39,277 nt of DNA from Sedimentisphaerales bacterium (GTDB lineage Bacteria; Planctomycetota; Phycisphaerae; Sedimentisphaerales; Anaerobacaceae). The position numbers were made by a program, and so were the translations under genes. Of the stretch, positions 6,536 through 32,544 are shown one piece after another. The stretch covers positions 1 through 39,277 of the forward strand of contig JAFGPJ010000397.1 of assembly GCA_016936275.1 (NCBI GenBank). The letters run 5' to 3'. Below the pieces are notes generated by a model. It did not search any database and was not told the DNA's origin. It saw only the letters and a list, made by a program, of their open reading frames with translations. The stretch's first letter is position 1, and every line of letters starts with the position of its first letter.

Positions 6536-10731
<4,196 letters not shown>

Positions 10732-13122
10732 TTACTTTTCGCCAAGACCGTCAAACAATGTTTTTCGAGCGTAGATACGGTAATCCTTGATCCGTCCGTT
10801 TCGGCTGTCGGCCCGCGGCAGATAAAGCAACGCCGACACATCCTGCACCTTGCCCAAATCAAGCACCAGGTGATGCGGATGCGGCGGTGTGCTGCCGCCC
10901 TCCCACTGCGTATGCCACATTGTTACCGGCTGGTCATCGATTACGTTATCTGCACCGCCGGACTGACCAACCAACTCCTCGCTGTCGGCATAAACCACCT
11001 TCCATGAATTGCGGTCGATTTTCCGGCCCGCGGCATCGAGCATGTGAATTTCCGCAATCGACGCATATTGGTCATTGGCCTGAGAGTTCAGTGTTTCAAT
11101 ACAAATATACCGCGTCTGGACTGTCCTGCCGAAATTCGCTTTCTGCTCGGTCGCTCCCGGCTTAAAAGAACTTTCGACAACAACGTCTTTCACGTCGAGT
11201 TTTACGCTCTGCCCCGGTTTGCGATAGTATTTCAAATTGACTGCTGTCTGAAGCTCATAAACCGGTTCGGTCAGGCCTTTAACTGTATAATGCCCGCGCG
11301 GTTCAATATCAAGCACGATGATTTCGTTGACTCCTTTCTTCAGCCAGCAGCCAGGCATGTAAAGTGTCTGCTGCGGCCCGATTTGCCAGTATCGACCGAG
11401 ATTGTACCCGTTGACCCAAACCATGCCTTTGCCCCAGCCGCGCATGTCCAGAAACGTGTCGCCGGTCTTATCGATGTTAAACGTCGCTTTATAGAAATAC
11501 GGCATCTCATCTTGGGGCGATTCAACGGCCTCAAATGTCAACCCGCTCAAATCATCCAGCTCAAATGAATACATTTCCCAGCCCGCCGCAGCGGGCAAGC
11601 CGCTCAATACTTCATTATTTAGTTTTACCTCACCGGCAATACCCTTGCGGTCTGTAATCAAGTTACGGGAAAAGTTCAGATGCCCCATATTCTCAACCAG
11701 CACATCCAGCATAACGACACCATCGCCGATATCGACTCTTAATCTTCGTTGGTTATCCAGCCGCCTATCCAGCGTCCCGACACGTTTGCCGTCGAGCATC
11801 ACGAACGCCCGGTCCTTGACCGTCGCGAATTCAAGCGTGCCGCTCTTAGGGCCTTTGATATGTGTGCGATATAACATCAGCCCCTGTGCCTGATCCAGCG
11901 CTTCCATATACGTAGGAGTTTCCACCTTGCAGGGCTTTGTTTGTAACTGCATAAATGATGCCATCTGTGTCATCTTAATTTCCGGAATCTCAATGCGTCC
12001 TATCGGTTCCGGCAGTTCGGGCAGCTTTGTCCCTTCCGGCAGATGCTTCAAGATTACATCACGAAATTCATAAAACTTTTCAGCAGGGTTGCCCGCCTCG
12101 TGAAGATTCGCTGAGTAGTCATAGCTGGTCGTATCGCAACTGTATTTACCCGACCAGTTCGCACCTGCGGTAAATCCCCAGTTCGTTCCGCCGACGAACA
12201 TATACAGATTAAACGATATCCCGTTTTCCAGCATCCAGTCGATAAGCTTGGCTTTTTCAGCGCCGCTGGTTGTGTGATGCGGCGCTCCCCAGTGGTCGAA
12301 CCATCCCGTCCAGAACTCGCCGGACATCCGCGGCAAATCCGGATAGAACCGGTCAAACTGCTCAAAAGCCCATTGTGGATTGTCACCGAAATTCATTGTC
12401 GACAGCACGCCATCCAGATGTCCCCCTTTTATGGTATCATCGCGAGGCCAGTCACAGCGGATGAGCACCACATCGCTGAATGCCGCAGCCGTCTGGTCCT
12501 TGATCGTTTCATAATATTTGCGGTCCTCGCCGAAAACGGCATACTCGTTCTCAACCTGCACCATGATAATCGGACCGCCCTTAGAAGCCTGCAGCGGCGC
12601 GAGCTGCTTGCCGACTTCTTTCAGGTAACGCCCCGTCGCTTCGGTAAATTTTGGGTCGCTGGTACGCACTTCCATATTAGGGTCTTTCAAAAGCCACGGC
12701 GGCAGTCCGCCAAAATCCCACTCCGAACAAACATAAGGACTTGGCCGTACGATTACCCACAGTCCTTCTTCCTGAGCGACCCGGCAGAATTGGGCCACAT
12801 CAAGATTGCCGGAAAAATCAAACTCGCCGGGCGTTTTCTCATGCGCATTCCAGAATACATAAGTACTGATAGTATTGAGTCCCATCGCACGGGCCTTTTT
12901 CATGCGGTCACGCCAGTAAGCCCTTGGAATACGCGGATAGTGAACTGAGCCGGAAATAATGACCGCCGGTTTTCCGTCAAAAACAAAATTGCGTCCCTCG
13001 AACCCGAATTTCGGCTGCGGCTGTCCCTGCGGATTCGGAGCCGGCGCAACAGGCACCGAACCGGCATACGCCAAAGCACAGAGGATTAACGTCGAGATAC
13101 AATGCAATTGGATTTCTTTCAT
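10732..13122 (-). CDS. GH35 beta-galactosidase, exported
   Basis: This 796-residue protein is a family 35 retaining beta-galactosidase with a signal peptide (MKEIQLHCISTLILCALAYA, cleavage near AYA-GS). The barrel occupies about residues 35-365 and shows the family signature at its start (SGSVHYPRIP, WNAHEKTPGEFDF). The acid/base is E193 in VENEYAVFG and the nucleophile is E269 in GEFWTGWFDHWG. Beta-sandwich domains follow, including MRGWGKGMVWVNGYNLGRYW, typical of the galactose-binding domain of the family. The last 130 residues resemble an F5/8 type C module (TMWHTQW, LYLPRADSRNGRIKDYRIY) that ends soon after its late strand. It starts six bases after the stop of the upstream GH2 gene, so the two are surely co-transcribed. 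No strong Shine-Dalgarno is seen, which fits translational coupling. Confidence 0.94.
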   Translation of the reverse strand: MKEIQLHCISTLILCALAYAGSVPVAPAPNPQGQPQPKFGFEGRNFVFDGKPAVIISGSVHYPRIPRAYWRDRMKKARAMGLNTISTYVFWNAHEKTPGEFDFSGNLDVAQFCRVAQEEGLWVIVRPSPYVCSEWDFGGLPPWLLKDPNMEVRTSDPKFTEATGRYLKEVGKQLAPLQASKGGPIIMVQVENEYAVFGEDRKYYETIKDQTAAAFSDVVLIRCDWPRDDTIKGGHLDGVLSTMNFGDNPQWAFEQFDRFYPDLPRMSGEFWTGWFDHWGAPHHTTSGAEKAKLIDWMLENGISFNLYMFVGGTNWGFTAGANWSGKYSCDTTSYDYSANLHEAGNPAEKFYEFRDVILKHLPEGTKLPELPEPIGRIEIPEIKMTQMASFMQLQTKPCKVETPTYMEALDQAQGLMLYRTHIKGPKSGTLEFATVKDRAFVMLDGKRVGTLDRRLDNQRRLRVDIGDGVVMLDVLVENMGHLNFSRNLITDRKGIAGEVKLNNEVLSGLPAAAGWEMYSFELDDLSGLTFEAVESPQDEMPYFYKATFNIDKTGDTFLDMRGWGKGMVWVNGYNLGRYWQIGPQQTLYMPGCWLKKGVNEIIVLDIEPRGHYTVKGLTEPVYELQTAVNLKYYRKPGQSVKLDVKDVVVESSFKPGATEQKANFGRTVQTRYICIETLNSQANDQYASIAEIHMLDAAGRKIDRNSWKVVYADSEELVGQSGGADNVIDDQPVTMWHTQWEGGSTPPHPHHLVLDLGKVQDVSALLYLPRADSRNGRIKDYRIYARKTLFDGLGEK

Positions 13123-13127
13123 AACTG

Positions 13128-16343
<3,216 letters not shown>

Positions 16344-16452: not shown

Positions 16453-17814
16453 TTACAAAATGGCTGTCACAGGTTTATCCAGTTCGAGTATAACAACGGT
16501 GTCCAATAGTCTTCTGTCAACAAGCGGAACTTCAATTAGAATTGATTTTTCATCTTGCTGAACAGAGACTTTTCCACCGGTCAATATCGAAGAAGATTGT
16601 ATCGTCTGGGCAATTGCAGGCAGTGTGATTGTTCCGTCTTGGGGCCAATTTCGGATATGAACGTAAATCTTATTCCCTTTATGGGTACTGCCATAATGCT
16701 CCGTGGGCTGAAACGGTCCGCCGCGGGTTCCGTAAATACTTTCTGCATGTTCGGCCATCCACTTTCCGACCTGGCGTAACCGTTGAACATGTGCAGGCGG
16801 AATTACCCCGTCGGCATCTGGTCCCACGTTCAGCAAGACATTGCCATCGCGGGTAAATATGTCGAGCAGCATATTAATTATTTCTTCGTACCCCATCAGG
16901 TTCTGTTTTGGTTGATATCCCCATGATACTTTGTTTAAATTTAAACATTTTTCCCACGGGAATGGAATGATCGGGCCTGAAATTGTATCACCTCCTTCAT
17001 TACAGTTAAAATCTCCCTCCCAGCCGGAACGTGGATTGATGACTGTTTTGGGGTTGTATTTGCGAACCATCTGGTTGAGTTTAACCGACCCCCAAAGCCA
17101 TGCGCCATCGGCATCGGTGCCCTGGTGTGCAAGCCAGCCGCCGTCATACCACAGGATATCAATCGGACCGTACCGAGTACACAACTCCTCGACCTGTCCC
17201 CAGCATTGTTCCTTCATCAGCAAAGCATTTTCCTGCAGTTCTTTCGGTTTAAAGTATCCGGGAAACCGCCAGTCCATCAACGAATAATAAATGCCTACTT
17301 TCAGGCCGGCATCTCGACAAGCCTGCACGTATTCTTTCACAAAGTCGCGTTTGGCCGCTGTTTTTACACTGGTAAAATCCTTGTAGCTGGAAGGGCTGTC
17401 CCATAAACAAAATCCGTCATGGTGACGAGCGGTCAAAACCATGTATTTCATCCCCGCATCTTTGGCAATCTGAGCCCATTGGTCCGCATCAAATCGCTGT
17501 GAATTAAACTCATCGGCCAGTTTGACGTACTCATCTGCGGGGATTTTTTGATTATACATCACCCATTCACCCTGCCCGGGGATGGCATAAAGTCCCCAAT
17601 GAATAAACATCCCGAATTTCAAACCACGCCATTGAGCCATGTCTTCCTCGGTCAATCTTAATCCGGGGCAGACAATCCCATCTCTGCTCTTAAAAAGCGT
17701 ATTGGCTTTTTCCATTGAGGCAAGCTCATCATCAGCTATCTCTGCGCCGAAAGAAACCCCGATATATAATAAAGTTACAATGATTATCACTGCCAATTTT
17801 TCCATACCGTTCAT
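16453..17814 (-). CDS. GH29 alpha-L-fucosidase, exported
   Basis: This 453-residue protein is a family 29 retaining alpha-L-fucosidase that removes terminal fucose from glycans. A signal peptide (MNGMEKLAVIIIVTLLYIG, cleavage near SFG-A) places it outside the cytoplasm. Family motifs are KFGMFIHWGLYAIPG near residue 66, YMVLTARHHDGFCLWD near residue 124 and IDILWYDGGW, in which D224 is the expected nucleophile. LLNVGPDADG near residue 325 closes the barrel, and a C-terminal beta domain follows. The ATG has GGAG seven bases upstream. It starts 35 bp after the GH112 stop, consistent with one operon. In this position it would uncap fucosylated galactosides so that the galactosidases can act. The acid/base residue varies in GH29 and I do not assign it. 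Confidence 0.94.
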   Translation of the reverse strand: MNGMEKLAVIIIVTLLYIGVSFGAEIADDELASMEKANTLFKSRDGIVCPGLRLTEEDMAQWRGLKFGMFIHWGLYAIPGQGEWVMYNQKIPADEYVKLADEFNSQRFDADQWAQIAKDAGMKYMVLTARHHDGFCLWDSPSSYKDFTSVKTAAKRDFVKEYVQACRDAGLKVGIYYSLMDWRFPGYFKPKELQENALLMKEQCWGQVEELCTRYGPIDILWYDGGWLAHQGTDADGAWLWGSVKLNQMVRKYNPKTVINPRSGWEGDFNCNEGGDTISGPIIPFPWEKCLNLNKVSWGYQPKQNLMGYEEIINMLLDIFTRDGNVLLNVGPDADGVIPPAHVQRLRQVGKWMAEHAESIYGTRGGPFQPTEHYGSTHKGNKIYVHIRNWPQDGTITLPAIAQTIQSSSILTGGKVSVQQDEKSILIEVPLVDRRLLDTVVILELDKPVTAIL

Positions 17815-17849: not shown

Positions 17850-20036
17850 TTATATCTCATTCCCGTCGAAATCAAACCATTTGGATGCGTTGGCTTCGAG
17901 CCAGACAGTTTTTTCGTTACCGTCCCGGTCTGTAATTGTGGTTGTCTGCGGCTCGTAAGAGTTGTTAATCACAATGTATTTGCCGGTTCGGGGAAAGCCC
18001 GCAATTTCGGTTTCAATGTTGCTTGAGAACCATTTTTGGGTCATTTCGTCTTCTCTGCCGGCTGCGTACCAGATGGCGCGCTGCAGGAGGCGGTTCTGCT
18101 CGGAACCAAGCTCGAAACCAGCGAGGTAAACACCGCGGCCTTTACCGTAATCGTTAGCGGCAATTGTTACACTTCCCTCGTCATCTTTAGCGATGATTTG
18201 AGTGGACTCGAGGCAGGGATAAATTTTTTGAACGTGCTTACCGAGGCTGGGATTCGTGCCGGCGAGATCAGCGGCTATGAAATGACCTTTAGTGATATCC
18301 GTGGGAATCACTTTCCGGCAGCCGTTGGACAGACCTATTTCTTTTTGAACGCCGAGGATATCCCACAACTGGTAATAAGCCCCGCCGTGTTCACTGGCGG
18401 CAGGGTCGATAACACCGAGAAAGCCTCCGCCGGCGTCAACCCATTGGCGGATGGCGGTAATAATCCGGGGGTCTTTCCAGTGATGACCGCCGCTCCAGGA
18501 AGTGCCGGCAACGCCCATGTTGATGATGACACCGATATCTTTGGCAATACCGTTTTCTCTTATGTCATCGAAAGAAAGCCACTCGATGTCGAAGGGCAGG
18601 CCGGAGAGAGACTCGGTGATACCGCCGAGAGGCCAGGACTGGTCGAAGCCCCAGGAACGCGCTTTACCCCAGGCGTTGAGAATCGCCACTTTGAAGGGCG
18701 CGTTCTCGACGGGAGTGAAGTTGGTGTTTTCGGTAATTTTATAGTATTCCTTGCTCTGTGCCTCGACGTAATCGATGAACTCGGGAAATTTAACCGCCAG
18801 ATCAAGGTAACCGCCGTAACCGATTCTGTGAACGAGCCTGCGGAGCATGGCACGGCGAATCCACATCCAGTAGCGCTTGCACTCGCCGACAGGGTCGCCG
18901 CCTTCCTTAAAGGAAGGCTCATTCGTAAGATTCACGGGGAAAAAGTATGGGTACAGACGCAGCTCCTTAACAAGCTCGCCCGGGATGTCGGCGATACGGC
19001 GAACTTCACGGCCGTTGATGCAGGGACCTACTATCCCGTCGAAACCGATTTGCTGGAATTTCGGCTTGTAAGGCTCGGTGCCGATATGATGGTCGCAGTA
19101 GAACATGATTGCCTTTTTGCCGGCATCGTGAACCTGTTTGACGCAATCTCCGGAAAACTCAACCAAAAACTCGTGGACGAACTCTATCCAGTCGAGGTAG
19201 GCCCTGGTCGGCACGCGGTCGGTGGAGTTGAAGTAACCGTTTTCAACGATGTCATTGGGACTGAGGCGGTAGCCCTTCTTTTCCTCGAACTCATCGAGTG
19301 CCTGGGCGGACATGCAGTCTAAGTAGCCATACCAATCCTGATAGAGCGTTTGGTGCTTTTGGTTAGTTATAATCGGGAACTGATACGCCATAGAAGTAAA
19401 GCGTACCCAGTCTGTGTTCGGGTGGGTTGCCAGCCACTTGTCGAGGAACCTGGCGATGTGTTTGCGTGTTTCAGGCTTCCGGGGGTCGATGCCGGACTGG
19501 TGCGGCCTGTCCCAGTTATTCGTAATGTGGTTGTACATCGAAGTGGTTTCCCATATCTGGTAAACCAGGAAATTGACGACGTAAATATTCCATTTGGCGC
19601 AGTTGTTGACGGTTACGATACCGTCGGCATAGTCCCAATCGGAAACAGGAACGATTTGGCCGGTGGTCCTGTTGACGACCTCCCAGTATTTTTTGCAGTC
19701 GTGTACTTCGTCGATTTTAAACTGCTCGTTCGAATACCGCGCCATGATGTCAATTTTTATTGTTGCCTCGCGTGCCGCTTGCGGCGCCGAGTAGAGGTAC
19801 TTCTGCTGGCAGTCTTCAGGGTGTGAGCTGTTCCACTTTTGGTCTGCGCGGATAAGACAGATTGTCGAGTAGATGTCCCAGCCAAGCTCCATAATTGAAT
19901 CTGAAAGTACAGTCCCATCCGAGTCACGGAAAGCGTCGGCTCCCCAGCGCTTTGCCAGGTCCAGAACAATATCATCCATTCCAGCCTGTGCCGGAAGGGT
20001 AAAACCGCCTCGTTTAGCGTGTATTTTTTTACTCAT
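17850..20036 (-). CDS. GH112 galactosyl-disaccharide phosphorylase
   Basis: This 728-residue protein matches family 112, the inverting phosphorylases that convert Gal-beta-1,3-GlcNAc/GalNAc or Gal-beta-1,4-L-rhamnose plus phosphate into alpha-galactose-1-phosphate and the free acceptor. Recognisable segments are GGFTLPAQAGMDD near the N-terminus, RWGADAFRDSDGT, and FYCDHHIGTEP, where D315 corresponds to the general acid of the B. longum enzyme (D313) by motif. The length is usual for the family. There is no signal peptide or membrane segment, so it is cytoplasmic. AAGGAAG precedes the ATG by six bases, and it follows GH42 after 14 bp. The symporter two genes upstream is the likely source of its disaccharide. 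Whether the acceptor is a hexosamine or rhamnose cannot be told from sequence. No nahK-like kinase or galT gene is in the window. Confidence 0.93.
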   Translation of the reverse strand: MSKKIHAKRGGFTLPAQAGMDDIVLDLAKRWGADAFRDSDGTVLSDSIMELGWDIYSTICLIRADQKWNSSHPEDCQQKYLYSAPQAAREATIKIDIMARYSNEQFKIDEVHDCKKYWEVVNRTTGQIVPVSDWDYADGIVTVNNCAKWNIYVVNFLVYQIWETTSMYNHITNNWDRPHQSGIDPRKPETRKHIARFLDKWLATHPNTDWVRFTSMAYQFPIITNQKHQTLYQDWYGYLDCMSAQALDEFEEKKGYRLSPNDIVENGYFNSTDRVPTRAYLDWIEFVHEFLVEFSGDCVKQVHDAGKKAIMFYCDHHIGTEPYKPKFQQIGFDGIVGPCINGREVRRIADIPGELVKELRLYPYFFPVNLTNEPSFKEGGDPVGECKRYWMWIRRAMLRRLVHRIGYGGYLDLAVKFPEFIDYVEAQSKEYYKITENTNFTPVENAPFKVAILNAWGKARSWGFDQSWPLGGITESLSGLPFDIEWLSFDDIRENGIAKDIGVIINMGVAGTSWSGGHHWKDPRIITAIRQWVDAGGGFLGVIDPAASEHGGAYYQLWDILGVQKEIGLSNGCRKVIPTDITKGHFIAADLAGTNPSLGKHVQKIYPCLESTQIIAKDDEGSVTIAANDYGKGRGVYLAGFELGSEQNRLLQRAIWYAAGREDEMTQKWFSSNIETEIAGFPRTGKYIVINNSYEPQTTTITDRDGNEKTVWLEANASKWFDFDGNEI

Positions 20037-20050
20037 GTTCAGCTTCCTTT

Positions 20051-22066
20051 TTAGTTTTTCCTTAAAACAACGGGTTGCACGGCATCGAGCCTGATAGTGC
20101 CTTTCATGGTAGTCTGCGTCAAGAGGTCAAAGTATTCAGCGTCAGGCAGCGTCACTTCCACAGGCTCGTAGTTGTGATTCATGACGAAGAGGTATTCATT
20201 ATCTTTGTTGGAACGAACCACGGCTTCGACTTTTTCAGTCGCTTCGAGCACGGGTTTGACTCCCTTCTCAGCACAAACCTGCCTGAGGAATTGCCGCATA
20301 AACTCATTGCCGGGCAGTGTGGCAACGTAGTAAGCCTTGCCTTTACCAAAGTTATTTACCGTCAGGGCGGGAGTGCCTTTGAAGAAGTCGCTTCCGTATT
20401 CAGCAAGGGACTGGGCCGTGCCTAACTGCAGGATGTCACACCAGAGTCTGGATTCGAATTGGCCTGAAACGTTGGGCAGCTTGTCGTTCATCACAAGGCT
20501 GTTGTTGATGTAGGGTTTCATGGCTTCGAATTCTTCGACCTTCAGACCAAGCACATCGCTGAGCGGTCCCGGAAATCCGCCCTGGAATACTCTGTCCATT
20601 TCGTCAACTACGCCGCTGAAAAAAGTGGTGATGAATGTGCCGCCTTCGGACACAAATTTCTCAACGGATTCCTTGAAGCCCGGTTTTACCATGTATAAAA
20701 GAGGAGCAATGACGACCTTGTATTTACTCATATCCCTGTCGTAGGAAATGATATCCGTCGTGATGTTTTGTTCGAACAAGGGGTAGTGGTAAGCCTGTAA
20801 ATTTTCCAGATACTTCAGTAAAGCCGTAGGTCCTGGTGTAAACTCCACCGTCCACCAGTTATTGTAGTCCAGTACAATGGCGACATCGGCCTGCACGTCG
20901 CTGCCAAGCACCTCTTTGAGGCTGGGCAGTTCCCGGCCGAACTGGGTCATTTCTTTAAATACGCGTGAGTTCTCTCCGATGTGAGGGACTATAGCGGAGT
21001 GGAATTTTTCCGAACCCTGAACCGAAGCCCTCCACTGGTAGAACATGAAGCTGTCGGAACCGTGAGCCATGCCCTGATAGCTCCAGAGTCTCATCACGCC
21101 GGGTTTCTTGTTCACGTTTACCTTGCGCCAATTCACCTGGCTGGGAGCCTGCTCAAGCAAGACGAAGGGCTGGTCTTTCAGGCCGCGCATAAAGTCGTGG
21201 CTGAGCGCAGCTTCGCCCGGATGGGTGGTGGTTTTGGGGTCGGGGAATGAACTGACCGAGATAAAGTCAATCATATCCGCCCAGGCAAAGTAGTCCAGTG
21301 TCTTAAACTCGTAGAGGAAGTTTGTGGTAATCGGCACATTGGGTGTGACTTCGCGCAGGATGGCGATCTCGTCACGGGCAACTTCCATATAACATTCATT
21401 GGTAAAACGCTTCCACTCAAGCAAAAGGGTTGTGCTGACCTGGTGTGCCGTTCTCATAGGGGGCATCAGCTCATCCCACTGGTAAATATTGTTGCCCCAG
21501 AAATGCAGGCCCCATTTGTTATTGAGGTTTTCACAGGTGCCGTATTTTTCTTTGCACCAGTTTTGGAATTTTTTAATTGTGATTTCGCTGAAATCATAGT
21601 TGACTAAGTGCGACAGCTCGTTGTTTACGTGCCACATGCAAAGCGCGGGGTGGTCTTTGTAGCGTTCGGCGATTTTGCGGACAAGCTTTTTGCTAAGCTC
21701 TCTGTATTTGGGGCTGTTGGGATTGAATGTCTGACGTGAACCGTGATAAAAAAGTAAACCGTTTTTATCGATGGGCAGAATCTCGGGATATTTTTTAGCC
21801 ATCCACGCCGGAGTCGAGGCCGTGGCGGTTCCGAGGTCCGCTGAAATACCATTCTTTGCCAGGGTATTCATCACCTCATCGAGCCACTCGAACGTCCAGG
21901 TGTCTTCGTCAGGCTGGAGCTGGCCCCAGCTAAAAACGTTGATTGTCGCGATATTGACGCCGGCTTTCTTCATCAGGCGCATATCTTCTTCCATGACTTC
22001 CTTGCCGAAGTGCTCGGGAGTATAGTCGCCGCCGAAATAGATGTTAGAAAGTACAAATTTTTTCAT
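20051..22066 (-). CDS. GH42 beta-galactosidase, cytoplasmic
   Basis: This 671-residue family 42 enzyme hydrolyses short beta-galactosides. It starts directly with the family sequence (NIYFGGDYTPEHF), has no signal peptide, and so should work in the cytoplasm. The barrel carries the acid/base E150 in HVNNELSH and the nucleophile E305 in VLLEQAPSQVNW. A trimerisation (Rossmann-like) domain from about residue 390 and a small C-terminal beta domain complete the standard layout. GAGG is nine bases before the ATG. It lies between the symporter (215-bp gap holding a large palindrome) and GH112 (14-bp gap). Some GH42 enzymes prefer beta-1,3-linked galactose; pairing with GH112 makes that attractive here but unproven. 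Confidence 0.95.
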   Translation of the reverse strand: MKKFVLSNIYFGGDYTPEHFGKEVMEEDMRLMKKAGVNIATINVFSWGQLQPDEDTWTFEWLDEVMNTLAKNGISADLGTATASTPAWMAKKYPEILPIDKNGLLFYHGSRQTFNPNSPKYRELSKKLVRKIAERYKDHPALCMWHVNNELSHLVNYDFSEITIKKFQNWCKEKYGTCENLNNKWGLHFWGNNIYQWDELMPPMRTAHQVSTTLLLEWKRFTNECYMEVARDEIAILREVTPNVPITTNFLYEFKTLDYFAWADMIDFISVSSFPDPKTTTHPGEAALSHDFMRGLKDQPFVLLEQAPSQVNWRKVNVNKKPGVMRLWSYQGMAHGSDSFMFYQWRASVQGSEKFHSAIVPHIGENSRVFKEMTQFGRELPSLKEVLGSDVQADVAIVLDYNNWWTVEFTPGPTALLKYLENLQAYHYPLFEQNITTDIISYDRDMSKYKVVIAPLLYMVKPGFKESVEKFVSEGGTFITTFFSGVVDEMDRVFQGGFPGPLSDVLGLKVEEFEAMKPYINNSLVMNDKLPNVSGQFESRLWCDILQLGTAQSLAEYGSDFFKGTPALTVNNFGKGKAYYVATLPGNEFMRQFLRQVCAEKGVKPVLEATEKVEAVVRSNKDNEYLFVMNHNYEPVEVTLPDAEYFDLLTQTTMKGTIRLDAVQPVVLRKN

Positions 22067-22281: not shown

Positions 22282-24474
22282 TTAAACCGTACCGCGCCGC
22301 TCTTCCAGTTTCTTTCTGTTTTCCTCAGCTTTTTCCTTGCTAAGCGGATAAAAGCCCAGAAGGACAAAACAAAGCAGAGCCGGGCCGGCGGCGCCGATGC
22401 ACATGGCCAGACGCATGTTCAAAAACGTTTTTGCTGTCTGCTGACCATCCACACGGTCGTTATCTACCGCTGTGATTTCAAAATCAACACTTTCAGCTCC
22501 ATCGGGAATCGTTACCGTAGAAGGGACCGTTGCATCTTTGCTGTTGCTGCTTTTCAAGGTTACCTGCAGGTCTCCGCTTGTCCTATCGTTTCTCGCGACG
22601 GTTCCGACAAGCTCTCCTCCGTTTTCGCTCATATCATAACCCCAAATCCAGGTGTATAATGCCGGGCCGTCATCATCTATCACATCAATGGGCCCTCTGG
22701 TCGGTTTGCCTCCCTTGACCCAGGCTGTAATTGTAGCACTACGGGTACCGTTTGCTTTGGTATCATTCACTGAAGCAATCTCGAACCGGGCTTTTTTATG
22801 TCTGGCGGGAATCGTAACCGTTTCAGGCACGCTTACGATGGAGGTATTACTGCTTTTCAGGTTTACAATAAGACTGTCTTCGTCGGAGAAATTCGAATCG
22901 CGAGACAGGGTTGCCAGACAGGTTCCATCTTTCTCAATCATCCGTTGCTGAGCGATTTCCAGCCCAACCTTGTAGACGTCATTATCCGCTGCCGCAGCAG
23001 GTGCAGCAGCATTGACAGTTTCCGATTCATCGTCTGTAACCGCAAAGTCGGCGGAATCGGCGGCATAACTCTCAGCAACGACATCAACCTTTAAGTATCG
23101 GGTTGACCCCCACTGTGGATCAAAGCCAATACCCTCCAGAAACAGCCCGATAAGGACAAAGCTGAAAGCAAAGGAGGCCTTCATTGACCAGCCGTAGATG
23201 GCGCCGAACATGCCTTCGCGGCGGTGCCCGTTCTTGATTTCATCATCATCGCAGACGTCGGCGATCAACGATTGTCCCAATACGCCCACTCCGATCCAGA
23301 ACATACCCCCGGTCAACGGATCCAACCAGATAAGGGATTTGGCAATGGCAGCAAAGGACGTTCCGATTTCAGGAAAGCTTTTCCAGGTAAGGGCTGTGTC
23401 AAAACGACCGGGGAGATAGACGAACCAGCGAATAACCGCATTCAGGATCATCATACCATAGATAAACATGAAGCCGTGGATCTTTGTCATTTTCCCGGTG
23501 ACCCAGACGATGATAGGAATACCAAGAATACCTGTAACTGCATAGCCGATTGTCACAATAAGTTTCCACTGAGTCCCCAATGCAACATCCCCGTCAGACA
23601 GATAAAAAATTAACAGATACCAGTCCATGTTGCTGGCAAATACACCGGCAATAATAGTAAACACCGCAAGCGTACACAAAATAGCAAAGGCTTTGTTCTG
23701 CAGTGTTTCCCTGGCGGATCGCCAGAAGGGATCTTTTTCGCCATGGCGCTCCTTGATATTGAGTTCATAGTTACGTTCCCTGGCAAAGAAGGCCGGCAGA
23801 AGTCCGAACAGAGTCATGCCGACTCCACCGTAAATAGCAGCCGAGATACGGATACCTTCCATTTTTTCCGGATTAATCAGATCACTGGTATCAGAGTAGC
23901 CGTATTTCCATACGATGAAGGTCAAAGAAAGCGGGATCAGCCCCATATAGGTCATCTCGCCAAGCCTGTTCCAGAAAGTTACATAGCCCTGTACGCTGGT
24001 GCGCTCATCATAATCCGGTGTCATCTCATAGGTCAAACTGATAAACGGCACCGAGAAAATGGTGTAAGCCGTGTAAAACAACAAGCTGGTGGTAAGGAAC
24101 CATGTCAATTTACCTGCATCGCTCCATTCCATTGGAATCAACCAGATGCTGGCAAAGGTCAGCCCCATCAGAATTGCACCGAACAGAATAAACGGCCGCC
24201 GCCTGCCAAATCTTGACCGGAAATTATCGGAGATGTTCCCCATGATCGGGTCGGTGATCGCATCCCACAACAGTGGAATGGCCAGTACAACGCCCACCCA
24301 GAAGGCGTTGATACCGAGAATCATATTCAACACCGCCTGGCCGGTTGTGCGGACGCTCTGGTTGCCGAGAGAAACGGTCAGGCCGCCGGTGCCCACCGAA
24401 AACTTTTCTTTGAAACTCAGCTTGCCGCTCGAAGCAGCCGTGCTCCCTTGCGGAGTTTTATCCATTTCGCTCAT
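22282..24474 (-). CDS. GPH-family (MelB-like) sugar:cation symporter with Calx-beta-like insert
   Basis: This 730-residue membrane protein is an MFS transporter of the glycoside-pentoside-hexuronide:cation symporter family. The MelB-type motif WDAITDPIMG (helix 2, with its paired aspartates), the loop SRFGRRRP and the helix 10-11 stretch DVCDDDEIKNGHRREGMFGAIYG are all present. Twelve helices can be placed, but the last two are split: helix 11 ends near residue 455 (LIGLFLEGIGF) and helix 12 begins near 683 (MRLAMCIGAAGPALLCF). The roughly 220 residues between hold an Ala/acidic linker and two Calx-beta-like repeats with SSNTSIVSVPETVTIP and SSNSKDATVPSTVTIP. In the usual topology this loop is periplasmic. 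AAGGAG is six bases before the ATG. It lies 15 bp after the GH50-like gene and upstream of the cytoplasmic GH42 and GH112, so uptake of galactosyl oligosaccharides is the likely task. Confidence 0.92.
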   Translation of the reverse strand: MSEMDKTPQGSTAASSGKLSFKEKFSVGTGGLTVSLGNQSVRTTGQAVLNMILGINAFWVGVVLAIPLLWDAITDPIMGNISDNFRSRFGRRRPFILFGAILMGLTFASIWLIPMEWSDAGKLTWFLTTSLLFYTAYTIFSVPFISLTYEMTPDYDERTSVQGYVTFWNRLGEMTYMGLIPLSLTFIVWKYGYSDTSDLINPEKMEGIRISAAIYGGVGMTLFGLLPAFFARERNYELNIKERHGEKDPFWRSARETLQNKAFAILCTLAVFTIIAGVFASNMDWYLLIFYLSDGDVALGTQWKLIVTIGYAVTGILGIPIIVWVTGKMTKIHGFMFIYGMMILNAVIRWFVYLPGRFDTALTWKSFPEIGTSFAAIAKSLIWLDPLTGGMFWIGVGVLGQSLIADVCDDDEIKNGHRREGMFGAIYGWSMKASFAFSFVLIGLFLEGIGFDPQWGSTRYLKVDVVAESYAADSADFAVTDDESETVNAAAPAAAADNDVYKVGLEIAQQRMIEKDGTCLATLSRDSNFSDEDSLIVNLKSSNTSIVSVPETVTIPARHKKARFEIASVNDTKANGTRSATITAWVKGGKPTRGPIDVIDDDGPALYTWIWGYDMSENGGELVGTVARNDRTSGDLQVTLKSSNSKDATVPSTVTIPDGAESVDFEITAVDNDRVDGQQTAKTFLNMRLAMCIGAAGPALLCFVLLGFYPLSKEKAEENRKKLEERRGTV

Positions 24475-24489
24475 ATTTCACTCCTTTGG

Positions 24490-26592
24490 TTATTTGATGC
24501 AGTTATAAAGGTTGCGTCCGGATTCTTCGGCAGCCCGAACCAGTTCCTCATTGGGCATGTCCACTATATCGAAGAATCCGACGTCATAATTTTCGCCGTC
24601 ATAACGACCGCCGACATTTTGGTCTCGCCACTGAAACCAGTGAGCGCCGATAATTTGAGGATTGTTAACCGCTTCGGCAATATAAGCCCTTAATAAACGT
24701 CCCTGCTGAACGGCATCCTGGGCACTGCGCAAACCGCCGCCAAGATTACTCCCGGCCGTATTGACAAAATGAAATTCGGTAATCAATACGGGTTTATCCG
24801 TAACACCATATCTGCCTACATAAGGGCTGTATGAGTAAATATTAGCGCTGATTACGTCCGCGTATTTAGCTGCCGTCTTAATGACTTCCGGCGGAGCGAC
24901 ATGAAAACGACTGCCAAGATAAAGAATATTTGGAGAGTAGTTTTTCAATTCTTCCTTAACCATCTTATAGAACGCATCGGCGAAAAGCGTCGCTAACGCG
25001 GAACAGTCATCGGAATTTGCATTTCTGAATACTGATACGTCGGTAACTTTCAGTAAATCGTCCCATGTGGTAAAACTCGTTTTCCACGCGTTATTAAACG
25101 CCTCGATAGTGGTGTATTTTTCCTTAAACCAGTCACGGAAAACCTTTTTGACTTCGGTGGTCTCTTTTTTTACCGCGGCGTTCCTCTGGTCATAACCCAA
25201 AATAGCCGGAACCAGCTCAGTAGCTCGATTCTCCCAATGCAGCTCATTGTTTACAAAGGCACCCAGACACCAGGGGTCATCTTTAAAAGGCACCGGATAT
25301 TCCCGCATTGCTTTACGCAGACCGGCGCGGGTTTCCGGGTCGAATGGGTCAGGCATTTTCGGCGCGGCGAAAGCGTAAACATAATGGAGCATCACGGTAT
25401 AAGGCACTTTCTTCTGAGCGGCAATCTCGTAATCCGACCAGGCCCCGATGGTATTGAGATGGCAGTATTTCAAACGCTTAATATCCTGCTCGACAGTTTT
25501 TTCAGCCCAATCCCTGCCGTATTTGCGGTACAGGTTCGCTGCCGTAAAGTCATAGTGAGGAACATCTTCCAAAAGGGCGTAATTGTGTTCGACATCCAGC
25601 TTTATATAAAACTGACCGAATTTCTTATCATCCTTAGCTGGGAAACCCTGAAATACGGAAGGCTCTCTCTCTAAAGGTGTTTGACCGGCGAATTGAATTC
25701 CGATACAGTCGGCGCCATAAGACCAAAACAGATAACCCTCCGGGTCAACAAACCACCATCTGTCTTTATATCTTTCTACGCGGAAAAAACCTGTCGCTTC
25801 GAATTTCGGGCCTTCTTTGAAGCCTCCGTATTTAGTAAAGCCGGTTGGTTCGCTGTACTCTTCTTCCAGCTTTTTCTCAATCGCTATTCCTTTGAGTAAA
25901 TCCTTGTCGGAGTGTACCTTATTCGGCCATTCTTTTTGGATGTATTGTCCATATTTATCAATGAACGGAAATTTGCCCATTTGGCTCTCGTCCATCTTTT
26001 GCAGCGGGAACATCTGTGCCAGCTCGAAGGAATGCTCACCTTTTTGATTGCAGGTAATTACCAGGTCTTTTACCCGCTTCGGGTCGATAGTATGCCAATG
26101 GCTGAAATGTCCGTCAGGCAGGCCGGACATTCTCAGATAAGCCGGATGTGGCGGCTTTTCTTCCCAGACAGAACGGCGGCCAAGCGCCACAGCCAAAGGC
26201 ATTTCCTCCCCGGTTTTTACGACAGTTCGACCGAGCGAAGAGTTAGACCATCCGGTTGCGCCTTCATTGCCTAACATCATATCCAGAATCATTTCTGTGT
26301 TGCCGGTGTTTTTGAACATAAGGCCGAGAACGCTGACCGATTCCATCCCGACAAATCGCCAGACATCGTCTTGTACAGGCACCAGAACAAGCCTGAAACC
26401 ATCTTTAGCCTGCAAGATATGACGGCCTTCGACTGATTGCACTGAAAGATTTTGGGCCTCTTTAATCTTGTAGGGAATCGTGCTTATGAGATTTTGCTGC
26501 CATTGCGGTACATTGTGTTTTTCCGTTGCGTTGCAGCTCGCTAATCCAATCATTAATAACAAGCTGATTGATATTTTGAGGGTTTTTTTCAT
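24490..26592 (-). CDS. GH50-like (agarase-related) glycoside hydrolase, lipoprotein
   Basis: This 700-residue clan GH-A enzyme resembles family 50. The signal MKKTLKISISLLLMIGLASC ends in a lipobox, so it is a Sec-exported lipoprotein. An N-terminal beta domain is followed by the barrel with GFFRVERYKDRWWFVDPEG near residue 271, acid/base E450 in VNNELHW and nucleophile E606 in ITEFHF. The C-terminal IGAHWFQWRDQ and YDGENYDVGFFD fit the family. The same layout is found in the plus-strand gene at 4406-6520; that protein uses a Tat signal and reads GEWHFG where this one reads TEFHFV. It is the first gene of the minus-strand run, with a promoter-like site 65 bases upstream. No clear Shine-Dalgarno precedes the ATG. 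Substrate is unknown: agarose-type galactans are precedent, but no sulfatase or other agar gene is here. Confidence 0.82.
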   Translation of the reverse strand: MKKTLKISISLLLMIGLASCNATEKHNVPQWQQNLISTIPYKIKEAQNLSVQSVEGRHILQAKDGFRLVLVPVQDDVWRFVGMESVSVLGLMFKNTGNTEMILDMMLGNEGATGWSNSSLGRTVVKTGEEMPLAVALGRRSVWEEKPPHPAYLRMSGLPDGHFSHWHTIDPKRVKDLVITCNQKGEHSFELAQMFPLQKMDESQMGKFPFIDKYGQYIQKEWPNKVHSDKDLLKGIAIEKKLEEEYSEPTGFTKYGGFKEGPKFEATGFFRVERYKDRWWFVDPEGYLFWSYGADCIGIQFAGQTPLEREPSVFQGFPAKDDKKFGQFYIKLDVEHNYALLEDVPHYDFTAANLYRKYGRDWAEKTVEQDIKRLKYCHLNTIGAWSDYEIAAQKKVPYTVMLHYVYAFAAPKMPDPFDPETRAGLRKAMREYPVPFKDDPWCLGAFVNNELHWENRATELVPAILGYDQRNAAVKKETTEVKKVFRDWFKEKYTTIEAFNNAWKTSFTTWDDLLKVTDVSVFRNANSDDCSALATLFADAFYKMVKEELKNYSPNILYLGSRFHVAPPEVIKTAAKYADVISANIYSYSPYVGRYGVTDKPVLITEFHFVNTAGSNLGGGLRSAQDAVQQGRLLRAYIAEAVNNPQIIGAHWFQWRDQNVGGRYDGENYDVGFFDIVDMPNEELVRAAEESGRNLYNCIK

Positions 26593-27529: not shown

Positions 27530-28132
27530 TTACTGCTTTTCTTCTTCCTGCTCATCTTTGGCTGTTGTATCATCCGTCTTTTCCGGCTGTTGCTCTTCAG
27601 CCTCTGGTGTGGCAGCTTCCTCTTGTGCGGCCGGCTTTTGTGCTTTTAAACTCGCCGATTTACTAAACTCGGCAAAAGCCTCTGCCCGTTTAGACCTTTT
27701 ATTTACTTTTTTGTCTGATGAAGCTTTTTCCTCGTCGCCAATCAACTGAAGCAATACCACCTGGCCGTTGTCACCCAACCGCCTTTTTGCCAGTTTAATA
27801 ATACGCGTATAACCGCCTGGTCTGTCTAAGTATTTTGGGGCTATATCACTGAAAAGCTTACCAACAACATTTCCCTTACTGACAGGCTGACCTTCCTCAT
27901 AATCTACAATATCCTTGTTCCCAAGCAACGAAATGACTCTGCGTCTCGCTGTAAGGTCGCCTTTTTTAGCAATAGTTATAAGTTTTTCCGCAAAACCTTT
28001 TACTTCTTTTGCCTTTTCGATTGTCGTTGATACTCTGCCATGCTCAAAAAGCGAGCTAACCATGTTACGGCGCATCGCAAGCCTGTGCTCGGAGTCTCTT
28101 GATAATCGTCGTCCTGCTATTCTATGACGCAT
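27530..28132 (-). CDS. rplQ: 50S ribosomal protein L17 with long C-terminal tail
   Basis: L17 sits near the peptide exit tunnel of the large subunit. The first 120 residues are canonical (MRHRIAGRRLSRDSEHR, SLFEHGRVSTTIEKAKE, GGYTRIIKLAKRRLGDNG). After that the protein continues for about 80 residues rich in Ala, Glu, Lys and Gln, so the total is 200 aa against about 120-130 in E. coli and many others. The tail looks disordered and has no domain that I recognise. It follows rpoA by 41 bp, as in the alpha operon of many bacteria. Confidence 0.97.
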   Translation of the reverse strand: MRHRIAGRRLSRDSEHRLAMRRNMVSSLFEHGRVSTTIEKAKEVKGFAEKLITIAKKGDLTARRRVISLLGNKDIVDYEEGQPVSKGNVVGKLFSDIAPKYLDRPGGYTRIIKLAKRRLGDNGQVVLLQLIGDEEKASSDKKVNKRSKRAEAFAEFSKSASLKAQKPAAQEEAATPEAEEQQPEKTDDTTAKDEQEEEKQ

Positions 28133-28173
28133 AAAAACCAGCCACCTCAGTATTAAATTTCAAAATCTCAAAT

Positions 28174-29181
28174 TTATTCTACCGGCAAATCCGACATACC
28201 CAGCGATAAGCCGAGGTCCGCCAGTTTACGTTTCACTTCACGAAGACTCGTTCTTCCAAAGCTGCGAATTTTCAGCAGCTCACTCTCTGTCATTTTTGCA
28301 AGCTGACCAACCGTTCCCATCTTCACCGATTCAAGGCAGTTATTGGCTCTTACAGAAAGTTCGAGTTCACTTATCGGCATATTAAGCTTTGCCGACAACT
28401 CTTCATCCACCTGCCGCTCCTTTGATATTTCCTCGGCAATTTCTTCCGCTATTGTCTCCTCGCCCGTTTCGCTGTACTGCACAAATGGATTGATATACTT
28501 TCTCAATATCTTCGCGGCTTCCACAAGTGCCATATCAGCCGTTATCGTACCGTTCGTCCAAATCTCCAGAATCAGCTTATCATAGTTTGTCCGCTGCCCG
28601 ACACGTGTATCTTCGGTGCTGTAGCGAACGCGGGTAACCGGAGAATATGAAGCGTCGATAATAATTCTACCTATTTCCTGGTCGAAACGCTCGGTGGCGG
28701 CAATTCTTTCGGAAGCAGGCACATAACCTCTGCCGTTCTCCACGACCATTTCCACCTCAAAATCCACATTCTCGGTCAACGTTGCTATCACATGGTTCTT
28801 GTCAACTATCTCGATCGCAGGGTCAGCAACAATATCTCCGCTTTTAACCTCACCAGCCTTATTGGCTTTTAACGTCATTGTCCTCGGACCTTCACCGCTA
28901 AGGCGGATTACCAGGTCTTTCACATTGAGAACAATGTCTGTCATATCTTCCATAACACCTTTTATCGAGGTAAACTCATGATCGACACCTTTTATCTTAA
29001 TAGATGTTACTGCGCTGCCTTCGAGAGAAGACAGCAGCACCCGCCTTAAGCTGTTACCTATCGTAGTGCCGAAGCCACGCTCGAAAGGCTCGATATAGAA
29101 CTTGCCGTACTTCTCATTGGACACCAGTGTGTCACACTCTACCTGAGTCGGCAATTCCAGTCCACGCCACCTGATTCGCAT
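28174..29181 (-). CDS. rpoA: DNA-directed RNA polymerase subunit alpha
   Basis: The alpha subunit (335 aa) dimerises to nucleate RNA polymerase assembly, and its C-terminal domain binds UP elements and activators. The N-terminal domain shows GFGTTIGNSLRRVLLSSLEG near residue 36 and the C-terminal domain shows VRANNCLES and LLKIRSFGRTSLREVKRKL. AGGAGG lies five bases before the ATG. The gene is between rpsD and rplQ, the standard alpha-operon order. Length and domains are normal. Confidence 0.98.
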   Translation of the reverse strand: MRIRWRGLELPTQVECDTLVSNEKYGKFYIEPFERGFGTTIGNSLRRVLLSSLEGSAVTSIKIKGVDHEFTSIKGVMEDMTDIVLNVKDLVIRLSGEGPRTMTLKANKAGEVKSGDIVADPAIEIVDKNHVIATLTENVDFEVEMVVENGRGYVPASERIAATERFDQEIGRIIIDASYSPVTRVRYSTEDTRVGQRTNYDKLILEIWTNGTITADMALVEAAKILRKYINPFVQYSETGEETIAEEIAEEISKERQVDEELSAKLNMPISELELSVRANNCLESVKMGTVGQLAKMTESELLKIRSFGRTSLREVKRKLADLGLSLGMSDLPVE

Positions 29182-29259
29182 AAAGGCCTCCTGTGTTAAA
29201 CTATATTCTGGCCGCTTATAATTAACTTTATTTTCAACAAGCTATAAATCTTCCTGCAA

Positions 29260-29892
29260 TTACCTCGAACAAATTTCGACAACAAGCTGTTCTTCCATCG
29301 GTATCTGTATATCATCACGGCTCGGCAACGCCACAACTGTCGCTTCCGGTTTATCGCGGTCAAGCTGCAGCCAGCCCTGGGTTGTATAATTCGGGTTCAC
29401 TTCAAGCTGCATTTTGATTTTCTTTTTGCTCTTATCAGACGGCTTAACGATAATCTTGTCGCCGACCTTCAATGTATAATCACTTACATTGACCTTTCGT
29501 CCGTTGACATAGATATGACCGTGAACAATAAGCTGACGCGCAGCCTTACGGGAAGGTGCGAAATTCAGTTTGTAAATCACATTATCAAGTCTGCGCTCCA
29601 GAAGCTGAAGTAATATTTCACCCGTATTGCCTTTAATACGTTCGGCTTGTCGGAAGTAACGCATAAACTGCCTGTCCAAAAGGCCGTAAAACCTTTTTAT
29701 TTTCTGCTTCTCACGCAGACGAACTCCGTATTCACTCTGTCTGCCGCGGCGCCAGCCGTGCATACCGGGTGCCAGGTTGCGGGTCTTTTTCTCTACAGGA
29801 CACTTGGCGGTCTCGCAGCGAATACCTTTGAGCATCAGCTTCATGCCCTCACGTCTGCAAAGTTTACATGATGAATCCAGATAACGTCCCAT
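29260..29892 (-). CDS. rpsD: 30S ribosomal protein S4 (zinc form)
   Basis: S4 (210 aa) is a primary 16S-binding protein needed for small-subunit assembly. The N-terminus MGRYLDSSCKLCRREG carries four cysteines in the pattern C-x2-C-x13-C-x4-C, so this is the zinc-binding form. The S4 RNA-binding domain follows (RRLDNVIYKLNFAPSRKAARQLIVHGHIYVNG). In many bacteria S4 represses its own operon; no such mRNA structure was identified here. It lies between rpsK and rpoA with gaps of 29 and 78 bp. Confidence 0.98.
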   Translation of the reverse strand: MGRYLDSSCKLCRREGMKLMLKGIRCETAKCPVEKKTRNLAPGMHGWRRGRQSEYGVRLREKQKIKRFYGLLDRQFMRYFRQAERIKGNTGEILLQLLERRLDNVIYKLNFAPSRKAARQLIVHGHIYVNGRKVNVSDYTLKVGDKIIVKPSDKSKKKIKMQLEVNPNYTTQGWLQLDRDKPEATVVALPSRDDIQIPMEEQLVVEICSR

Positions 29893-29921
29893 CAGTTACA
29901 TATATCTCCAAAATAAATCTT

Positions 29922-30302
29922 TCAAACTCGTCTTCTCTTTGGTGGCCGGCACCCGTTATGCGGCAGGGGCGTTACATCTTCTATTGAAGATATACGCAAA
30001 CCCGCCGACTGCAACGCTGATATTGCCGACTCCCGCCCGGAACCAGGGCCTTTAACTCTGATTTCCACCTCGCGGACACCGTTTCGCATCGCCGCCGTCG
30101 CGCAGCGCTGGGCAGCCTGCTGGGCCGCAAAAGGCGTACTCTTGCGCGAGCCCTTAAAGCCGATACAGCCGGCCGAAGCCGTACATATAGTATCGCCATC
30201 AGGATCCGTTATAGCTATCAACGTATTGTTAAACGTTGCTTTAATATGTACTATAGCTTTTGATATATTTTTTTTGACTTTTCGCTTAGTGCTTTTGGCC
30301 AT
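29922..30302 (-). CDS. rpsK: 30S ribosomal protein S11
   Basis: S11 (126 aa) lies on the platform of the small subunit near the mRNA exit. Family stretches seen are [44 protein letters not shown] and the C-terminal [15 protein letters not shown]. Length is normal. It is 40 bp after rpsM and before rpsD. Confidence 0.98.
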
Positions 30303-30342
30303 TATTTTTTAATCCCGTTTCAAATAATATTTCTCTAAAATA

Positions 30343-30726
30343 TTAATGCACCTCTTTAACACCCTTCTTGCCGGCAACTGTCTTACGAGGTCCTTTCCGT
30401 GTTCTCGCATTGGACTGTGTCTGTTGACCTCTTACCGGCAATCCCTTGCGGTGACGTATGCCGCGGTAACAAACTATGTCCCGAAGACGGGCTATATTCT
30501 GTGACACCTGCCTGCGAAGCTGTCCGCCTACTATATAATTACGGTCAATAATCTGTGTTATACGGCTCAGCTCGTCTTCAGTGAGCTTGTTGGCCTTGGT
30601 CATCTTGTCGATACCGGCTTCTTTAAGTATCTGCTCGGACGTATGCTTGCCAATGCCGTGAACATAAGTCAGCGAAATCCATATCGACTTCTCATTAGGT
30701 ATATCAATACCAACTATACGGGGCAT
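30343..30726 (-). CDS. rpsM: 30S ribosomal protein S13
   Basis: S13 (127 aa) is at the head of the small subunit and contacts the large subunit and P-site tRNA. It begins [19 protein letters not shown] and shows [14 protein letters not shown] and [28 protein letters not shown]. The ending KKGVKEVH is short and unremarkable. It follows rpmJ by 17 bp. Confidence 0.98.
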
Positions 30727-30743
30727 ACTTGCTCCTTTTCAAT

Positions 30744-30857
30744 CTAACCCTGTCGTTGTTTGTGCCTCGGGTTACTGCAAATTACACGTATTACTCCCCT
30801 GCGGCGAACAACCTTACAGTTCTCACATATTCGTTTTACTGAACTTCGTACTTTCAT
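30744..30857 (-). CDS. rpmJ: 50S ribosomal protein L36 (zinc form)
   Basis: This 37-residue protein starts [21 protein letters not shown] and ends [10 protein letters not shown]. Cysteines 11, 14 and 27 with His32 form the zinc ribbon of the C+ type of L36. Position between infA and rpsM is the standard one. It is 12 bp after infA and 17 bp before rpsM, so all three share a transcript. Confidence 0.97.
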
Positions 30858-30869
30858 TTTATTGCCTTA

Positions 30870-31085
30870 TCAGTGCCTAAGTACAATTCTGCCTCGATTC
30901 AAATCATAAGGACTCATCTCAATGGTCACCTTGTCGCCTGACAGTATTCTTATATAATGCATTCGCATCTTGCCCGATACGTGAGCTAATATCTTATGAC
31001 CGTTTTCAAGCTCTACATTAAACATCGCGTTGGGCAATGCTTCCAAAACCGTCGCTTCGAGTCTTATCGCGTCTTTCTTAGGCAT
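30870..31085 (-). CDS. infA: Translation initiation factor IF-1
   Basis: IF-1 (71 aa) is a single OB-fold protein that covers the A site during initiation. From the ATG at 31085 it reads [19 protein letters not shown], which aligns with the usual start of IF-1. A TTG five codons upstream is in frame but would overlap the map gene and add an uncharacteristic MNKWF. The ATG is seven bases after the map stop, with AAGTGG between. The order map-infA-rpmJ-rpsM is common. Confidence 0.97.
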
Positions 31086-31092
31086 AAACCAC

Positions 31093-31872
31093 TTATTCAA
31101 CTGTCATTATTTCACAACCTTTACTCGTTATTGCTATTGTATGTTCAAAATGGGCTGATTTGGCACTGTCCTTTGTTACTACAACCCAGCCATTTTTTAG
31201 CGTTCTAACTTCCTTTTTGCCTGCGTTTATCATCGGCTCAACCGCCAATATCATACCATCAGACAGGATAATATCATCAGCAAGCAGCTCCTTACTAACA
31301 AAATTCGGCACTTTCGGCTCTTCGTGCATCGACCTGCCGATTCCATGCCCGACAAAATCACGAACCACAGAAAAGCCCGCTCCTTCGGCATATTTCTGCA
31401 TCTGAGCCGCAACAGTGCTCCACTTCACACCGGGCGCCATCGATTCTTGAGCTATTTCCAGAACGCGCTTCGTTACATCAATCAGCCTGCTGTCCTGGGC
31501 GCTTATATCACCAACCGCAATCGTTACCGCCGCGTCACCGCAGTATCCGTCAAGCCGCACCCCGAAGTCAATACTGAGAATATCACCGTTTTTAAGCACT
31601 ACTTCTTTCGATGGTATCCCGTGAACGACCTCATTGTTTAATGAAGCGCATATAGCTCCGGGAAACGGAAATTTCGCCGAAGGATTCTTAACACCCAAAA
31701 ATAATGCTTCAGCGCCGAAATCCGCGGTCATCCGCTTCGCCTGATTATCAAGCTCTGCGGTACTAATGCCCGGCTCAGCCATCTCTTTTAATTTTGAAAG
31801 AACTTTTGCTACTACACTGCCCGCCTTGCGAATCAAATCAATTTCTCTCGGACTGCGAAGGATTATCGCCAT
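31093..31872 (-). CDS. map: Methionine aminopeptidase, type I
   Basis: This 259-residue metallopeptidase removes the initiator methionine from nascent proteins. The pita-bread fold ligands are visible: D in SIDFGV, D in [10 protein letters not shown] in [14 protein letters not shown] in AVEPMIN and E in FEHTIAI. It lacks the N-terminal zinc-finger or SH3-binding extension of other subtypes, so it is the simple bacterial form. It lies 18 bp after adk and just before infA. Confidence 0.97.
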
Positions 31873-31890
31873 CTAAAATATTGCCTGAAA

Positions 31891-32544
31891 TTAATTACCC
31901 GCAAGGGCATCTAAGGTCTCAAACAGCTCAGAGCTAATCGCATCGGCGCTTTTGCCGGCATCAAGCACGATTACACATCCGTTATTCTTATAATATCCGA
32001 CAACCGGTTCGGTCTGCTCATAATATGTCTCTAACCTCTGTTTCACAACCTCAGGTGTATCATCAGGACGCTGAATCAGTCCGGTCCCGTCTTTATCGCA
32101 TTTGCCGTCAGCCTTTGGTTTTAAATTCTTTATATGATAAACCGCGCCGCACTTCGGACAGCTTCTCCTGCCCGTCATCCTGCCGAGAATAACATCATCT
32201 TCAATCTTCAGATTGATTATAGCATCAATCTTTTTACCGTCCGCTTCCAACGCCTTATCAAGCTCTTCGGCCTGGTTAACTGTCCTCGGAAATCCGTCCA
32301 GAACAAAGCCCGTATCCGGCGATTGAGATATCGCTGTTGCCATCATTTCAACTATCAAATCATCCGGTACAAGCTTGCCGGAATCCATATAGCTTTGAGC
32401 CTTTTTCCCGAGCTCTGTCCCGCCAGCTCTGTTCTTACGAAGAATATCACCGCTCGAAAGGTGCTGCAGGCCATATTTTTCAACTACCCTTTTGCACTGT
32501 GTGCCTTTACCTGCTCCCGGTGCGCCAAGTATTATTATTCTCAT
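31891..32544 (-). CDS. adk: Adenylate kinase, zinc-LID form
   Basis: Adenylate kinase (217 aa) interconverts ATP + AMP and 2 ADP. The P-loop GAPGAGKGTQ is near residue 7, the AMP-binding LDGFPRT near residue 82, and the long LID contains C-x2-C-x16-C-x2-D, which should bind zinc as in Gram-positive enzymes. Its ATG overlaps the secY stop in the sequence ATGA, so translation is coupled. The secY-adk-map-infA order is typical of spc operons. Confidence 0.97.
   Translation of the reverse strand: MRIIILGAPGAGKGTQCKRVVEKYGLQHLSSGDILRKNRAGGTELGKKAQSYMDSGKLVPDDLIVEMMATAISQSPDTGFVLDGFPRTVNQAEELDKALEADGKKIDAIINLKIEDDVILGRMTGRRSCPKCGAVYHIKNLKPKADGKCDKDGTGLIQRPDDTPEVVKQRLETYYEQTEPVVGYYKNNGCVIVLDAGKSADAISSELFETLDALAGN

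Follow-up and report, generated by a model that had tools for sequence, protein, structure and literature searches.

Calx-beta-like repeats between the last two helices of a bacterial GPH-type symporter, and periplasmic-loop inserts in related transporters

Introduction

On a contig of a Sedimentisphaerales bacterium (GenBank assembly GCA_016936275.1, contig JAFGPJ010000397.1), an apparent MelB-type sugar symporter carries more than 200 residues between its last two membrane helices. The locus raises the questions of what this segment is, how it entered the transporter and what it could do beside a transport gate. We addressed them in the window, by which we mean the whole 39,277-nucleotide stretch of DNA analysed. 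An earlier note on this DNA had read the segment as two periplasmic Calx-beta-type repeats, which might capture substrate, bind a partner or sense cations, and knew of no transporter of the major facilitator superfamily (MFS) with this layout.

An outward domain inserted within the MFS fold is already known from eukaryotes. The mammalian SLC15 transporters PepT1 and PepT2 carry, in the TM9-10 loop, tandem Ig-like domains that bind trypsin; transport persists when this extracellular domain is removed, bacterial homologues do without it, and the authors called a domain inside the MFS core "highly unusual" (PMC4597091). In SV2A, another MFS protein, the luminal domain LD4 forms a beta-helix between TM7 and TM8 (PMC11026379). 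These published cases, together with the GPH symporters with periplasmic-loop domains reported below, show that the layout has parallels. No description of a bacterial MFS or GPH symporter with such a layout was found in the literature searched, which mostly lay outside subscription papers.

Results

The reading frame proposed earlier at 22282..24474 is real; it lies on the minus strand, which the earlier note had not given, and encodes 730 aa without an internal stop. Pfam MFS_2 (PF13347) matched residues 28-451 with an E value of 2.8e-58 and 197.9 bits, against a gathering score of 27, and an AlphaFold2 (AF2) model built with 30 aligned relatives placed 12 membrane helices at pLDDT above 90. 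The residues D55 and D59 (TM2) and K377 (TM11), whose roles in the MelB cation site are described (PMC8329300), corresponded in the alignment to D71, D75 and K432, which were invariant across the 30 alignment rows. By this family match, these helices and these cation-site residues, the protein is a complete symporter of the MFS_2/GPH type with 12 helices, as the earlier note had claimed. It resembles the MelB/GPH symporters in all three respects and departs from MelB in the TM11-12 loop, which is short in MelB, and in the galactosyl-binding residues D19 and D124, whose aligned counterparts are not acidic. For the latter reason we do not class the protein as a melibiose carrier, and we infer its substrate from the operon alone. 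Since its score against the gph subfamily model TIGR00792 (129.8 bits) was under the curated cut-off of 231.35 bits, we use the name GPH-type and do not assign it to TIGR00792.

The AF2 model placed TM11, which contains K432, at residues 420-448 (23131..23217) and TM12 at 681-708 (22351..22434), confirming a gap of about 220 residues between the two. TM12 is homologous to that of the relatives, residues 677-730 being 67% identical to the transporter of genome G033. Positive charges of the family were found in alternate, inward loops; this pattern and the MFS topology predict that the TM11-TM12 insert faces the periplasm, in line with the earlier proposal.

The insert itself spans about residues 455-678 (~225 residues; 22441..23112, minus strand) and is absent from six orthologues (L032-L034, L003, L036 and L037). 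Its main components are two related units. The first, a complete Calx-beta-like repeat, occupies residues 502-605 (22660..22971) and contains SSNTSIVSVPETVTIP at 541-556; the second, at 606-680 (22435..22659), contains SSNSKDATVPSTVTIP at 642-657 and VDNDRVDGQQ at 670-679, and ends DGQQT with its last strands missing. The two units lay where the earlier note had put them, except that the ND it had placed near residue 577 is at 570-571. The units exceed what chance would give. A search with the second of them seeded a repeat profile, built only from the large repeat proteins of other genomes, that matched residues 502-605 (1.3e-18) and 615-681 (8e-21); the second match ended at profile position 83 of 112, immediately ahead of TM12. 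The Pfam Calx-beta model PF03160 gave no match when compared directly with the window sequence, and we therefore call the repeats Calx-beta-like. That model did match 16 of the 18 sequences in the repeat alignment A3, whose profile, dominated by array rows, had NCX1 as its top match in the PDB (4e-18).

The full-length AF2 model left residues 460-675 unmodelled, having no aligned rows there, and an alignment that mixed transporters with array repeats put the array rows in the wrong place and was kept out of the folding. In the AF2 model of the insert, repeat 1 formed a complete beta sandwich, mostly at pLDDT of at least 90, and repeat 2 a partial one, mostly at 75-90. Foldseek returned the tandem Calx-beta pair CBD12 of NCX1 as the top PDB hit for this model (E 8.5e-9). 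The Calx-beta identity suggested earlier is thus upheld by profile and fold, with NCX1 on top, and not by a direct PF03160 match; of the two folded domains expected, the first is complete and the second lacks its last strands. We conclude that the loop between TM11 and TM12 has taken up about two units of an adhesin-type array of Calx-beta repeats.

Ahead of repeat 1, an N-terminal tail (about residues 459-487; 23014..23100) is joined to it by an Ala/acidic linker (about 488-501; 22972..23013), recognised in the sequence and modelled at low pLDDT. The tail fits the last two Calx-beta strands (profile positions 81-111), a fit that 16 of 20,000 shuffles gave in the same register at that score, and when it was joined to repeat 2 the score was equalled by about 1% of controls. 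The AF2 model of the insert did not place the tail as strands, and completion of repeat 2 by the tail, for which the sequence support is modest, was not reproduced in it. The insert probably starts and ends in one repeat phase, at profile positions 81 and 83. Entry in phase, as a piece about two repeat units long, is probable on this pattern, rather than proven, and may have come about through recombination at a short motif common to both sides, GQQT in the window and QT in the relatives.

Conservation in related genomes, which the earlier note had set as a test, was not found. The close orthologues, 70-83% identical and mostly from Kiritimatiellae metagenome-assembled genomes (MAGs), all have a short TM11-TM12 loop (GFDP...QTxxTYxNMR), and this particular insert was not found in any transporter of relatives or across the phylum; it was seen in one genome only. 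Among these orthologues, L032, L033, L034 and L003 have a matching glycosidase upstream of the transporter and a GH42 gene downstream, with GH112 following in L032-L034; the insert-free transporters in this matching operon order are 75-83% identical to ours, and GH112 is present wherever the locus reaches. As their operon matches and they lack the insert, transport is presumably independent of it, and the insert would presumably be dispensable for transport. Neither a search with the insert nor PF03160 at E <= 1 detected a donor Calx-beta array elsewhere in this MAG (79% complete); the sole weak hit of the insert search, L041, was a penicillin-binding-protein-like sequence. Codon usage in the insert was slightly atypical in comparison with the neighbouring genes, falling below all 102 comparison windows, and is compatible with a recent, possibly not yet useful gain. 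As judged by sequence comparison, the insert is a recent accessory gain. The two orthologues L036 and L037, 70-72% identical to the window transporter, which is of Kiritimatiellota type, come from records titled Alphaproteobacteria isolate fen_915, probably a mislabelled MAG.

We then considered other GPH symporters, starting from long open frames that matched MFS_2 and came from the family, the order or the phylum. This gave 93 unique GPH reading frames, which were partly picked for length and provide no frequency estimate. Inserts of at least 50 residues were present in 18 of the 93, comprising the window transporter and 17 others (L062-L065, L070-L073, L104-L106, L111-L114, L117 and L075). 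All 18 were in periplasmic loops (six in TM3-4, six in TM5-6, one in TM7-8, two in TM9-10 and three in TM11-12) and none in inward loops. In a quick tree built from the transporter cores, in which two truncated copies of carriers were scored insert-free and several long branches make parts unsure, the state with or without insert changed 11 times, and several carriers stood beside insert-free sisters. Assuming 11 gains equally likely across the 11 inter-helix loops, 6 of them periplasmic, the probability that all would be outward by chance is about (6/11)^11 = 0.001. Purging of insertions on the inward side may lie behind this rule. Big_9-like inserts that are homologous to one another are shared by several genera, which indicates that some inserts were retained, and no stop or decay was found in any of the long inserts read. 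Domain grafting onto periplasmic loops appears to be a recurrent evolutionary mode in GPH symporters of the phylum surveyed.

These transporters share family, phylum and periplasmic placement of the insert with the window transporter, and differ from it in the loops and domain types involved. Their inserts comprised FG-GAP, Big_9/Ig, helical and charged segments and some of no identified family. L070 (322-2811:+) had six FG-GAP_3 stretches (E 2e-47) between TM9 and TM10, and its insert is probably a beta-propeller. Big_9/Ig repeats were detected in the inserts of L063, L064 and L072 and similar repeats in L062 and L073; these five belong to several genera and to two families, and in each the TM5-6 loop held Big_9/cadherin-like repeats of about 270-300 residues. 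L111, L112, L113 (G100), L114, L104 and L031 had inserts of 200-480 residues in the TM3-4 loop, three of them in one genome, and those of L104 and L031 shared a unit without family assignment. The about 190-residue insert of L071 (334-2310:-) in the TM7-8 loop, without a PDB or Pfam match, is possibly a sugar-binding-type beta sandwich. In genome G024, two GPH genes were adjacent (L065:1029-4576), only one of which had an insert, in TM3-4.

All genes of the operon are on the minus strand. Upstream of the transporter is a conserved neighbour, a putative lipoprotein glycosidase with a weak GH42 match (24490..26592). Downstream are a GH42 beta-galactosidase with no signal peptide seen by eye (20051..22066) and a GH112 1,3-beta-galactosyl-N-acetylhexosamine phosphorylase (17850..20036), which scored over the TIGR02336 cut-off and is conserved in L032-L034. 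These are followed by an alpha-L-fucosidase (GH29; 16453..17814), a LacZ-type GH2 beta-galactosidase (13128..16328) and a GH35 beta-galactosidase with a partial F5/8 type C domain (10732..13122), all three with signal-peptide-like N termini, and by a GH2 beta-galactosidase with an F5/8 type C domain and a lipobox-like N terminus (6536..10561). With export signals judged by eye, the operon thus mixes secreted-looking glycosidases with cytoplasmic-looking GH42 and GH112. The upstream glycosidase is single-copy in the window and a tandem of two copies in L033 (1766-5875:+) and L032 (1-3573:+). We rejected the possibility that the insert had taken the place of a Calx-like segment in this enzyme, the relatives' tandem copy being without Calx repeats.

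Discussion

The explanation that we consider best overall, with a probability of about 0.4, is that the protein is a cation-coupled symporter whose insert would serve as a non-essential periplasmic platform, docking the operon's secreted glycosidases or a glycan near the gate. Transport would proceed by the usual cation-coupled rocker switch, as the retained MelB cation-site residues suggest, and the substrate, set free by the secreted glycosidases and used after import by the cytoplasmic GH42 and GH112, would be a beta-galactoside, for example lacto-N-biose or galacto-N-biose. The insert would project into the periplasm next to the gate and hold a partner, either a secreted or lipoprotein glycosidase or a glycan, near the entry site, as has been proposed for PepT1/PepT2 and trypsin. 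This proposal draws on that precedent, on the enzymes with export signals in the operon, on the insert-free orthologues and on the side bias. Against it, the insert occurs in one MAG only and repeat 2 is incomplete unless the tail strands complete it; moreover, the variety of the inserts argues against one shared partner or ligand. The likeness to PepT1/PepT2 consists in a tandem beta-sandwich within an outward loop of an MFS symporter, the second sandwich being incomplete in our model. The loops differ (TM11-TM12 here, TM9-10 there), so that the analogy is one of layout only, and the transporter families are unrelated; trypsin binding has been shown for PepT1/PepT2, while for the window insert docking is a proposal. 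SV2A likewise has a folded domain in an outward MFS loop, but is eukaryotic, with a beta-helix between TM7 and TM8.

A wider reading, tentative and possible at best, is that GPH symporters of this phylum share an exchangeable-module design in which a symporter is combined with a periplasmic module, and any outward loop can receive an adhesin, propeller, Ig or helical unit by exchange. Such a protein would be the one-polypeptide counterpart of binding-protein-assisted or enzyme-coupled uptake, the module here being two Calx-beta units that would have entered in phase as a circularly permuted pair, with the strands of the tail completing the second domain.

The docking proposal has to be weighed against an unlikely alternative, a recombination accident in which repeats of an array landed in a periplasmic loop that tolerates them and do little or nothing there, insertions on the cytoplasmic side having been purged. 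The restriction of a recent insert to a single genome in which every close orthologue lacks it, its probable start and end at equal repeat phase (positions 81 and 83), which suggests mechanical recombination, and its slightly atypical codon usage would all fit this explanation, and purging alone would also give the side bias. However, the reading frame and both flanking helices are intact, the long inserts read show no stop or decay, and homologous Big_9-type inserts have been kept across several genera.

It is unlikely that the insert acts as a glycan-capture module, binding an oligosaccharide directly and so raising the local substrate concentration at the gate. An operon of glycan-degrading enzymes would suit such a module, as would the L104 insert, which weakly matched an agarase CBM model (E 0.0018, below the cut-off), but two of the other inserts, when searched against the PDB, matched nothing. 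To our knowledge, Calx-beta repeats are not established carbohydrate binders.

Still less probable is a Ca2+-dependent regulator, in which the Calx-beta domains would bind periplasmic Ca2+ and alter transport as the cytosolic CBD1-CBD2 do in NCX. The top fold and profile matches are to the tandem CBD12 of NCX1, and the Na+/Ca2+ exchangers NCX1/CALX, likewise secondary transporters, also carry a tandem pair of Calx-beta domains in a loop; unlike the window protein, NCX is not an MFS transporter and its domains are cytosolic. Compared by eye with what we take to be the Ca2+-ligating positions of NCX, the insert keeps part of the ligand set: the E of IEKDG and the DDD of VIDDDGP in repeat 1, and the E of SENGG and the acidic residues of VDNDRVDG in the incomplete repeat 2. 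Other ligand positions of repeat 1 look lost (SNTS for D; NGTR for acidic residues), and repeat 2 has no terminal DDD unless TDDE of the tail takes its place. Regulation by Ca2+ would also leave the wider pattern unexplained, the inserts of the sister transporters not being Calx-beta.

An assembly chimera, in which the transporter gene was fused with an adhesin array, named in the earlier note as a refuting case, would agree with the absence of the insert from every other genome searched and of a Calx-beta array elsewhere in the MAG, but is highly improbable, because it would need to exit and re-enter one gene in frame at one outward loop, TM12 past the insert is homologous to that of relatives and in the right order, and other assemblies contain 17 comparable inserts that differ in composition, three of which lie on one 1.56 Mb contig.

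The layout has so far been described mainly in animal transporters, and it is found here in bacterial sugar symporters with differing domains and loops. A bacterial symporter family with about eleven domain gains in five different loops offers a tractable system for the function of inserted domains, with the insert-free orthologue in a matching operon as a natural control. It opens the questions of which loops tolerate domains and whether an enzyme or a glycan binder, once tethered, can be coupled to uptake. As for its genomic setting, the glycosidase cluster adjoins a ribosomal protein/rpoA/secY region (window 27530-33905).
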